57,881 nucleotides of DNA from Pseudooctadecabacter sp. (GTDB taxonomy: Bacteria; Pseudomonadota; Alphaproteobacteria; Rhodobacterales; Rhodobacteraceae). The translations under genes and the position numbers were made by a program. Position 1 is the stretch's first letter, and each line of letters starts with the position of its first letter. The stretch lies in contig NZ_JAHDGE010000008.1 of NCBI RefSeq assembly GCF_020627745.1, positions 1-57,881 of the forward strand, read 5' to 3'. The notes beneath the pieces are model-generated. The model was not told where the DNA came from. It did not search any database and saw only the letters and a list, made by a program, of their open reading frames with translations. Below, piece by piece: positions 14,617 to 48,018 of the stretch.

Positions 14617-14693
14617 GCCGCCTTAGCTCAGTAGGTTAGAGCGCTTGATTGTGGATCAAGAGGTCCCTGGTTCGAGACCAGGAGGTGGTACCA
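14617..14693 (+). tRNA. tRNA-His (GTG)
   Basis: The cloverleaf is complete: acceptor GCCGCCT/AGGTGGT with two G-U pairs, D stem GCTC/GAGC, anticodon stem CTTGA/TCAAG with loop TTGTGGA (anticodon GTG at 14651-14653), T stem CCTGG/CCAGG with TTCGAGA, and an encoded CCA. The discriminator base 73 is A and the base before position 1 is T, so the usual G-1:C73 identity pair is absent, as established for one alphaproteobacterial clade. A C-run and T-tract follow. Confidence 0.96.
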
Positions 14694-36484: not shown

Positions 36485-36997
36485 ATGGCGAAGAAGAAAA
36501 GTGAATTCAGCCCCAATGATTTCGTCGTCTATCCGGCGCATGGGGTGGGCAAGATTCTGTCGATCGAAACCTCCGAAGTGGCGGGGTTCGAGTTGGAGAT
36601 GTTCGTCATCGCCTTCGAAAAGGACAAGATGACGTTGAAGGTCCCGACCAACAAGGCCGAGGAAGTGGGCATGCGGTCCCTGTCTGCGCCCGATGTGGTG
36701 GCCGATGCGATGAAAACCCTGAAGGGCAAGGCCAAGGTCAAGAAAGCCATGTGGTCGCGGCGGGCACAGGAATACGAGCAGAAGATCAACTCCGGTGATC
36801 TGATTGCCATCGCCGAGGTGGTGCGCGACCTGCACCGCGCTGATGACCAGCGTGAACAAAGCTATTCCGAACGCCAGCTCTACGAAGCCGCGTTGGAGCG
36901 TCTGACCCGTGAGATTGCCGCCGTTGGCAATGGCAACGAGAGCGACGCCGCTGACGAGATCAGCGAGACACTGGCCAGCCGCGCGCCTGCTGCCTAA
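36485..36997 (+). CDS. carD: CarD-family transcriptional regulator
   Basis: CarD/CdnL proteins bind the RNA polymerase beta subunit and stabilise open complexes, chiefly at rRNA promoters. The 170-residue protein has the N-terminal RNAP-interaction Tudor-like domain (FSPNDFVVYPAHGVGKI, FEKDKMTLKVPTNKAEEVGMR) and a helical DNA-binding C-terminal domain (MWSRRAQEYEQKINSGD, then YSERQLYEAALERLTREIA). ATG 36485 has GAGGAAAGGA upstream. A strong terminator follows. Confidence 0.95.
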   Translation: MAKKKSEFSPNDFVVYPAHGVGKILSIETSEVAGFELEMFVIAFEKDKMTLKVPTNKAEEVGMRSLSAPDVVADAMKTLKGKAKVKKAMWSRRAQEYEQKINSGDLIAIAEVVRDLHRADDQREQSYSERQLYEAALERLTREIAAVGNGNESDAADEISETLASRAPAA

Positions 36998-45922: not shown

Positions 45923-46633
45923 TTAGTCGCGCTTGGAAAAAAGCTGATCCTGCGCGGATTTATCTTTACGGAAATCGCCGCGTTTGTCGGCATGCACCGC
46001 ACGGCCGGCAATGACACCCGCGCGGCTGCCCACAACATCCAGCCAGCGGGCCAGATGCGGTTTGTCGTCCAGCGTCTGCTGCTGGCCCTCCCACAAAGAC
46101 GCCCAACCCCAGATCGACATATCGGCGATGGAATAGAAATCCCCCGCCACATATTCGTTTTGTGCCAACTGCCGGTCCAGCACACCGTAAAGACGTGCAA
46201 CCTCGGACCGGTAGCGGTCTTTGGCGTAGGGCAGGTCGTTGGGCGGGTCCATTGCCGGCGCGTATTTCAGAAAATGATGCGCTTGCCCCGCCATGGGGCC
46301 AAGCCCGCCCATCTGCCACATCAGCCATTGATCCACGGCAATGCGGTCCCGTTCCGTGGGGCCGCCAAACTGGCCTGTCTTGCGGGCCAGATATTGCAGG
46401 ATCGCGCCGGATTCAAACATCGAGATCGGCGCGCCGTCCGGCCCATTGGGGTCAACAATCGCTGGCATCCGGTTGTTGGGCGCGATCGCCAGAAATTCCG
46501 GCGTGAACTGATCGCCTGCACCGATGTTCACCAGATGGACGTTATAGGGCAGGCCCATTTCCTCAAGCGCGATGGTGGCTTTCCAGCCGTTGGGCGTGGG
46601 CCAGAAATACAGATCAATGGGGTCTTGGGACAT
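45923..46633 (-). CDS. Glutathione S-transferase, YfcG/Ure2-like
   Basis: A 236-residue protein of the Nu-class/YfcG glutathione transferase type, disulfide-bond reductases that use bound glutathione. The N-terminal thioredoxin fold starts DLYFWPTPNGWKATIALEE and has NNRMPAIVDP and the glutathione-binding FESGAILQYLA; the C-terminal helical domain has WLMWQMGGLGPMAGQAHHF. The longer upstream frame overlaps the metZ riboswitch region, so ATG 46633 is chosen. It is divergent from metZ. Confidence 0.9.
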   Translation of the reverse strand: MSQDPIDLYFWPTPNGWKATIALEEMGLPYNVHLVNIGAGDQFTPEFLAIAPNNRMPAIVDPNGPDGAPISMFESGAILQYLARKTGQFGGPTERDRIAVDQWLMWQMGGLGPMAGQAHHFLKYAPAMDPPNDLPYAKDRYRSEVARLYGVLDRQLAQNEYVAGDFYSIADMSIWGWASLWEGQQQTLDDKPHLARWLDVVGSRAGVIAGRAVHADKRGDFRKDKSAQDQLFSKRD

Positions 46634-46690: not shown

Positions 46691-46719
46691 TTGACGGGTG
46701 CTGCAGTGCCGCGTATTCA
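46691..46719 (+). promoter_or_regulatory. Sigma-70 promoter of metZ
   Basis: TTGACG (46691-46696), a 17-base spacer and TATTCA (46714-46719) form a near-consensus promoter. The start would fall at about 46726, precisely the first base of the SAM-II aptamer, which supports both calls. Confidence 0.85.
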
Positions 46720-46725
46720 GCACCC
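46696..46725. repeat. Perfect 8-bp inverted repeat over the metZ promoter
   Basis: GGGTGCTG (46696-46703) and CAGCACCC (46718-46725) are exact reverse complements separated by 14 bases. One arm touches the -35 box and the other overlaps the -10 and the start site, the placement of a repressor operator. Confidence 0.75.
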
Positions 46726-46778
46726 AGTGGCGATTTGTTACCGGATTGCGGGCCACTTTAAATATGCTGCTAAAAGGG
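46726..46778 (+). ncRNA. SAM-II riboswitch upstream of metZ
   Basis: The sequence matches the SAM-II (metA motif) aptamer. P1 is AGTGGC (46726-46731) with GCCACT (46752-46757); the loop carries the conserved GATTTG; and the tail is TTTAAATATGCTGCTAAAAGGG, whose GCTGC (46766-46770) supplies the pseudoknot strand. This class binds S-adenosylmethionine and in alphaproteobacteria controls methionine genes such as metA and metZ. A terminator lies just downstream, so SAM probably stops transcription before metZ. Confidence 0.94.
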
Positions 46779-46788
46779 ACGGGCGCAG

Positions 46789-46819
46789 CCCCGATACCTT
46801 TGCCGGTGTCGGGGTTTTT
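46789..46819 (+). terminator. Attenuator terminator between SAM-II aptamer and metZ
   Basis: CCCCGATACC (46789-46798) pairs across its length with GGTGTCGGGG (46805-46814), followed by TTTTT (46815-46819). The aptamer strand GCTGC (46766-46770) can instead pair with GCAGC (46785-46789), which touches the terminator arm; this may form the switch. Confidence 0.88.
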
Positions 46820-46839
46820 GCTTGAAGGGGCATATACAC

Positions 46840-48018
46840 ATGGACACTTGGAAGAAACGCACAAAAGCGGTGCACGCGGGCACGCGGCGCAGCCAGTACG
46901 GTGAGGTGAGCGAGGCGATCTACGTCACTCAAGGGTTCGTCTATCCCACAGCCGAAGCCGCCGAAGCACGGTTTGAGGCGCTGGGCGAGGATGAATTCAT
47001 TTACGCCCGCTACGGCAACCCCACCGTGCGCATGTTCGAAGACCGGATGGCGATGCTGATGGGGTATGAAGATGCCTTTGCCTGCACGTCAGGCATGGCA
47101 GCGGTGTCCGGCGCGTTGACCGCGCTGTTGAAAGCCGGGGATCATGTCGTCAGTTCCCGTGCGCTGTTCGGGTCGTGTTTGTATGTGCTTGAGGACATTC
47201 TGGCGCGCTTCGGGGTTGAGGTGACGTTGGTCGATGGCACGGACAACGCCGCATGGGATGCGGCGATCCGGCCGGACACGCGGCTTGTGTTCCTCGAAAG
47301 CATTTCCAACCCCACGTTGGAGGTCGTGGACCTGCGCCATGTGGTCAAAGCCGCCCACGCTGTGGGCGCGCTGGTGCTGGTCGATGACGCCATGGCCACG
47401 CCGATCTATTCCTATGCGGCCACCTGCGGCGCGGATATTGCCATCGTGTCCACCACCAAACATGTGGACGGGCAGGGGCGCATGTTGGGCGGCCTGATCA
47501 CCGGCAGCCGCGACCTGATCCGCGGCCCGATCGAGGCGTATATGAAGCACACCGGTGGGGCCATGAACCCGTTCACCGCTTGGACGCACTTGAAATCGCT
47601 TGAGACCTTGGATTTGCGCGTCAACCAGCAGGCGGCTACCGCGATGGCCATTGCCGAGGCGTTGGACGGGCACCCCAAACTGGCCCATGTGCGCTATCCG
47701 ACCCACGCCGCCCACCCGCAGGCCGAACTTGCCCGCGCGCAGGGTGAAACCGGCGGCACCGTGCTGGCGCTTGAGGTTCGGGGCGGCAAAGAGGCGTGTT
47801 TCAAATTCCTCAATACGTTGGAATTGTTCACCATTTCCAACAATTTTGCCGATGCGAAATCCATTGTGACCCACCCTGCGACGACGACCCATCAGCGTTT
47901 GCCGCAGGACCAGAAGGATATCTTGGGCATCTCCGGCGGTATGGTACGATTGTCCGCAGGGCTTGAGGACGCGCGTGACCTGATTGACGATCTTAAAGCG
48001 GCTCTGGATCAGATTTAG
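46840..48018 (+). CDS. metZ: O-succinylhomoserine sulfhydrylase MetZ
   Basis: MetZ makes homocysteine from O-succinylhomoserine and sulfide, in methionine synthesis. The 392-residue PLP enzyme of the Cys/Met metabolism family shows TQGFVYPTAEAAEARF, FIYARYGNPTVRMFE, FACTSGMAAVSGAL, LVFLESISNPTLEVVD, and the PLP lysine in VSTTKHVDGQGRM. GAAGGGG precedes ATG 46840 by ten bases; three codons upstream another ATG is possible. It is controlled by a SAM-II riboswitch and attenuator. Related O-acetylhomoserine enzymes cannot be excluded from sequence alone. Confidence 0.94.
   Translation: MDTWKKRTKAVHAGTRRSQYGEVSEAIYVTQGFVYPTAEAAEARFEALGEDEFIYARYGNPTVRMFEDRMAMLMGYEDAFACTSGMAAVSGALTALLKAGDHVVSSRALFGSCLYVLEDILARFGVEVTLVDGTDNAAWDAAIRPDTRLVFLESISNPTLEVVDLRHVVKAAHAVGALVLVDDAMATPIYSYAATCGADIAIVSTTKHVDGQGRMLGGLITGSRDLIRGPIEAYMKHTGGAMNPFTAWTHLKSLETLDLRVNQQAATAMAIAEALDGHPKLAHVRYPTHAAHPQAELARAQGETGGTVLALEVRGGKEACFKFLNTLELFTISNNFADAKSIVTHPATTTHQRLPQDQKDILGISGGMVRLSAGLEDARDLIDDLKAALDQI

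Follow-up and report, generated by a model that had tools for sequence, protein, structure and literature searches.

The leader of a metZ-like gene in the marine bacterium Pseudooctadecabacter sp. raises the question of which RNA pairing would decide between termination and read-through as the supply of SAM changes. The gene lies in a stretch of 57,881 nucleotides, which we call the window; coordinates are window positions. Its product resembles O-succinylhomoserine sulfhydrylase, with a best NCBIfam score of 533.5 bits that is below the model cut-off of 675, and the closest MetZ proteins among named records come from Octadecabacter and Pseudooctadecabacter. The gene and the parts of the aptamer ahead of it are as follows.

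46717 to 46794, forward: match to RF00521 (SAM-II)
46726 to 46731, forward: P1, 5′ strand, from the sequence and the RF00521 alignment
46740 to 46742, forward: ACC, L1 strand of the P2 pseudoknot, assigned by homology
46752 to 46757, forward: P1, 3′ strand, from the sequence and the RF00521 alignment
46769 to 46774, forward: GCUAAA, conserved binding core, found ahead of metZ at 79 of 80 loci
46825 to 46830, forward: AAGGGG, probable Shine-Dalgarno sequence of metZ
46840 to 48018, forward: metZ-like gene

A sequence-only reading had placed a SAM-II aptamer here, and the Rfam covariance search bears this out: RF00521 is matched over its full length (model positions 1 to 79 of 79) at 59.1 bits (gathering score, 36; E = 8.7e-11). 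No second RF00521 match was found in the window's own assembly, which is 89.84% complete. P1 comprises six pairs, and both conserved motifs of the L1/L3 core, GAUUUG and GCUAAA, are present. Since P1 is invariant across 14 sequences of the genus, it shows no covariation. In the P2 pseudoknot, the CC/GG pairs are found in the window and the third pair would be A-G. Relatives show covariation of this third pair, in which an L1 base meets base three of the 3′ strand: 49 of 52 leaders of a second form described below have A-U or G-C, as sorted roughly by regular expression.

Like other SAM-II elements (RF00521, also known as the metA element or SAM_alpha), the window has P1, the GCUAAA core, a promoter just 5′ of P1, a terminator 3′ of P2, and a gene of methionine or SAM synthesis downstream, here the metZ-like gene starting at 46840. 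It departs from the RF00521 model by a gap of two bases and an insert of one base in L1 and by the noncanonical third pseudoknot pair, and otherwise we saw no substantive difference. The window thus carries an ordinary SAM-II riboswitch ahead of metZ, of known class and layout, and this copy presumably binds SAM. SAM-II is reported to bind SAM, and many of its members to be accompanied by terminators (PMC1273637). The arrangement of promoter, P1, and terminator is not new because the same 2005 report by Corbino and colleagues already places the likely start site a few bases 5′ of P1 and terminators after P2. A 2007 survey describes the pseudoknot of SAM-II aptamers as the point that meets the expression platform and states that, among riboswitch classes of alpha- and betaproteobacteria, SAM-II is the one most frequently linked to terminators (PMC2258182), and a 2014 survey gives SAM_alpha 5′ of metY in 26 of 30 genomes, in two alphaproteobacterial lineages (PMC4239095). 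At this gene, a SAM-II copy like that in the window is what one would expect, and the relatives may matter more.

Transcription of the leader would start from the following elements, which are separated by 17 nt in the window.

46691 to 46696, forward: TTGACG, −35 element
46714 to 46719, forward: TATTCA, −10 element, without T at −7
46726, forward: predicted transcription start, give or take a few bases, placed by spacing alone

The leader set comprised 81 sequences (the window and 80 loci), 79 of which could be anchored; L091, without a literal GCTAAA, and L038, which the pattern did not match, were left unanchored, and both have RF00521 matches. In 74 of the 79 anchored leaders, the first P1 base lies 34 to 37 nt downstream of the start of TTGAC, compared to 0.6% of mononucleotide shuffles, a comparison that is uncorrected for kinship (the leaders of L102 and L103, for example, are identical). 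All 74 have TA at a spacing of 17 or 18. TTGAC is missing from this position in L058, L080, L087, L089, and L090. By eye, L087, L089, L090, L129, L135, L137, and L142 (hairpin-bearing) have a CTTGCAAT- or CTTGAAAT-like sequence instead of TTGAC upstream of P1.

With the usual promoter spacing, which we assume here, +1 would fall on 46726. The sequence-only reading had the promoter abut P1 and transcription start exactly at the first P1 base. The placing of the promoter is indeed conserved, but "exactly" is overprecise: this base is A in the window and C in 41 of the 74 leaders, and, C being a poor initiating base, the start may differ by a few bases from the first P1 base. A start exactly there is plausible for the window and not a general rule. 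A consensus promoter scan reported no promoter at the metZ leader because its pattern requires a T as the final base of the −10 element, and this base is not T in 73 of the 74 TTGAC-bearing leaders. More than 60% of alphaproteobacterial sigma-70 promoters lacked the −7 T in a survey of mapped starts, and CarD was proposed to compensate (PMC8407463). The metZ promoter is of this non-T type, the kind proposed there to need CarD. A CarD-like protein of 170 amino acids (PF02559, 57 bits) is encoded in the window at 36485 to 36997 on the forward strand. On the other side of the promoter, a divergent gene (45923 to 46633, reverse strand), similar to glutathione (GSH)-dependent disulfide-bond oxidoreductases at scores below their cut-offs, starts 57 bp from the metZ −35 element.

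Downstream of the aptamer, the leader ends in a hairpin.

46787 to 46816, forward: terminator stem-loop, 12 pairs, loop of 6
46815 to 46819, forward: U tract of five U, from the sequence

That a full-length intrinsic terminator precedes metZ had been claimed before and stands. The arms (46787 to 46798 with 46805 to 46816) form a G+C-rich stem of −21.3 kcal/mol followed by the U tract, as is expected of an intrinsic terminator. Among 14 distinct genus-level sequences, 97.6% of the cells of this helix were paired, and the covariation score was 0.150 compared to 0.104 in shuffles, none of 500 being as high; two pairs showed two-sided change, a count reached by 20 of 500 shuffles. A pattern scan found one terminator where 0.6 were expected, which is no evidence by itself, and we accept the terminator because of the stability of its stem and its covariation, not because of the scan. 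Among the 79 anchored leaders, the finder placed a hairpin ahead of a T run in 78 and none in L101. Two of these hairpins, in L056 and L104, were judged to be artifacts of the finder and left out, so that a terminator was accepted in 76 of the 79, window included.

Which pairing would keep this terminator from forming is the central point, and the strands concerned are the following.

46766 to 46770, forward: GCTGC, strand of the helix proposed earlier, not supported as a switch
46773 to 46777, forward: AAAGG, pseudoknot 3′ strand and putative outer antiterminator strand, from folding
46780 to 46783, forward: CGGG, putative inner antiterminator strand, from covariation at 46781/46792
46785 to 46789, forward: GCAGC, strand of the helix proposed earlier, not supported as a switch
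46790 to 46793, forward: CCCG, arm common to the putative antiterminator and the terminator, from covariation
46797 to 46801, forward: CCUUU, predicted antiterminator partner of 46773 to 46777, from folding

We favor, with a probability of about 0.83, a SAM-II transcriptional OFF switch before metZ that works through an antiterminator made of 46773-46777/46797-46801 and 46780-46783/46790-46793. Transcription would start on the first P1 base or a few bases away from it. When SAM is scarce, the free AAAGG strand would pair with CCUUU and CGGG with CCCG, and the antiterminator would thereby hold the 5′ arm of the terminator, letting the polymerase read into metZ. With SAM bound, the GG of the AAAGG strand would be locked against the CC of L1 (46741 to 46742), and the freed arm would form the 12-bp terminator, stopping transcription before metZ. 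The ACC in the terminator arm would thus act as a decoy for the ACC of L1. We infer the direction of control, the start site, and the competition of the two folds in time.

The comparison of relatives points to this helix, although its covariation is modest. C46792 pairs with G46811 in the terminator and with G46781 in the antiterminator, and L013, L017, and L026 have U at this position with A at both partners. Such a triple change would be expected if both helices matter; it concerns one position in three related sequences and possibly reflects one or two events. Because the MAFFT alignment shifts the inner antiterminator strand out of register for 5 of the 14 genus-level sequences, this helix was counted on the other 9 and, in addition, by a script over 24 leaders. 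In the nine in-register sequences, 100% of the cells of the inner helix were paired, three of them with two-sided change, and the covariation score was reached by 5 of 500 shuffles. By the mere count of pairs with two-sided change, the antiterminator did no better than shuffles (385 of 500). In 16 of the 24 leaders that it parsed, the script found a spacer segment able to form Watson-Crick pairs with the arm, compared to 3.4 in shuffles (maximum of 9 in 1,000); the inner helix had no such pairing in the other 8, one of which (L106) was parsed wrongly, and the parser passed over 7 leaders. Furthermore, the GG of the 3′ strand pairs into the arm in all 20 folded leaders of the window's form. Across all architectures, the best fold has it paired with the arm or loop of the terminator in 66 of 76 leaders and not in the other 10, a count that is weak by itself because shuffles reach 53%.

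Antiterminator and terminator overlap and have one covarying position in common. When the free RNA was folded at successive transcript ends, the antiterminator belonged to the best fold from 46798 to 46810. From 46812 on, the terminator displaced it at equilibrium even without SAM, so that read-through must depend on timing. Enforcing P1 and blocking the aptamer bases removed the outer antiterminator helix; this constraint imposes the bound state and is not a prediction of it.

The sequence-only reading had instead proposed that, without SAM, GCTGC pairs with GCAGC and blocks the terminator in a simple exclusive switch. The positions and the complementarity of these strands are correct in the window, and folding predicts the helix as a transient with a probability of 0.87 at transcript end 46790. 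However, of 25 distinct leaders of the window's architecture, only 2 (the window and L028) have all five pairs, while 9 have four and 14 have three or fewer. Among the 14 distinct genus-level sequences, the helix was paired in 67.1% of cells compared to 69.4% in shuffles, 498 of 500 of which were at least as high, and no two-sided change was found. Nor would it exclude the terminator, because the overlap is confined to the foot of the terminator arm and the two are predicted together at transcript end 46812 (0.77 for the helix, 0.99 for the terminator). It is also weaker than the antiterminator, at −5.5 compared to −9.6 kcal/mol. Poor conservation, energy, and lack of exclusiveness led us to reject it as the switch, a role that we consider very improbable, and on sequence and folding grounds the antiterminator given above is the better supported of the two. 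GCTGC/GCAGC may have a kinetic side role. In free-RNA folds, GCUGCU (46766 to 46771) pairs with the 5′ strand of P1, and its bases are conserved in the binding core anyway. A long-range pairing of 46762 to 46768 with the 46830s, seen in the read-through fold, was put down to chance; the close relative L032 differs before the ATG, as judged by eye.

That the terminator wins at equilibrium would also suit a constitutive terminator, with metZ set mainly at the promoter and the aptamer yielding a riboswitch small RNA (sRNA). In Sinorhizobium meliloti, the metZ promoter is reported to be condition-responsive itself, and the metZ SAM-II element to give rise to an sRNA, RZ, of about 100 nt that is more abundant in high-SAM medium (PMC9373788). 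That element resembles the window in gene name, class, and a terminator 3′ of the aptamer, and termination on SAM binding is predicted there too; the likeness is drawn from its published description. Against a constitutive terminator speaks the alternative pairing of its arm, which is conserved in the genus, and we give this possibility hardly any credence. Somewhat less remote, but still unlikely, is that SAM-II here affects translation or the stability of the message no less than termination, a mode put forward for S. meliloti metA. In metX SAM-II elements, a strand of the kind discussed here serves as the Shine-Dalgarno sequence (PMC5352136, PMC10907184), and S. meliloti metZ mRNA is described as stabilized at high SAM (PMC9373788). 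In the window, however, the strand lies about 60 nt 5′ of the start codon with a strong terminator in between, and metZ has a separate AAGGGG 9 nt before its ATG. An effect on message stability may act beside termination at this metZ. With the antiterminator preferred, the likely switch helix is corrected, and the bases to mutate change with it.

Judged by eye, the relatives split into leaders of the window's form, with an arm like CCCCGATACC, and leaders of a second form, where the partner of AGGUCA is a UGACC or UGGCC within the terminator loop. In both forms, ACC or GCC copies the L1 strand. Some relatives also carry an insert. A core could be anchored in the window and in 116 loci; in 20 of these 117 sources, duplicates counted, sequence inserted between P1 and GCUAAA folds into a hairpin, though only poorly in L110. 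None of the 15 that were submitted to the RF00521 model reached its threshold, compared to five of five insert-free leaders. The matches of L042 and L139 (24.2 and 23.2 bits) covered P1 and its loop only (model positions 11 to 41), with one weaker match each. Of 29 distinct inserts, the ends of which were trimmed by rule of thumb, 22 folded at least as well as 95% of shuffles, and 7 failed to do so.

Of 394 genomes of the family, searched with stricter filters, 322 have an RF00521 match at an E value of 0.001 or better, and 316 are over the cut-off. The long-L3 pattern was found in 14 genomes, in each case upstream of a MetZ homologue (62 to 76% identity). That search gave no RF00521 match in 10 of these and matches with E values of 2.7e-5 to 9.9e-4 in 4. 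The weakest six genome rows include these four, and the rows below the cut-off likewise number six; probably, then, none of the 14 exceeds it.

A class called SAM-II long loops (RF01726) has a table entry for Bacteroidetes and marine sequences (PMC2864571). Its name suggests kinship with the L3-hairpin leaders and not with the window, a comparison by name and listing; neither L042 nor L139 matched RF01726 at E values up to 10. In the available listings and passages of the literature on SAM-II in Rhodobacterales and on long-loop or variant SAM-II, we found no L3-hairpin form named. We put at about even odds that Rhodobacteraceae metZ leaders use one logic on two unrelated platforms, with a decoy copy of the L1-strand ACC that sits in the arm or the loop of the terminator and competes for the AGG strand. 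The same odds cover a SAM-II subform among these leaders that has an additional variable hairpin after the 3′ strand of P1 and before the AAA/GCUAAA segment of L3 and that falls below threshold in the Rfam SAM-II models. The window has the decoy logic and lacks the extra hairpin. Should the hairpin leaders bind SAM, current SAM-II models would miss members of the class in a large marine family, and the fold would tolerate insertions where the hairpin sits.

The L3-hairpin leaders include L042 (for example, L042:1845-1910), L045, L055, L064, L096, L109, and L129 to L142, among others, and the hairpin is variable in sequence. An assembly of the same genus, G004, has two SAM-II matches (C155:155-232 and C158:16138-16215) in metZ-type leaders that differ from each other; the completeness of this assembly is 74%, and it is possibly mixed. 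Elsewhere in the window, a tRNA gene lies at 14617 to 14690 on the forward strand (RF00005, 66.4 bits).
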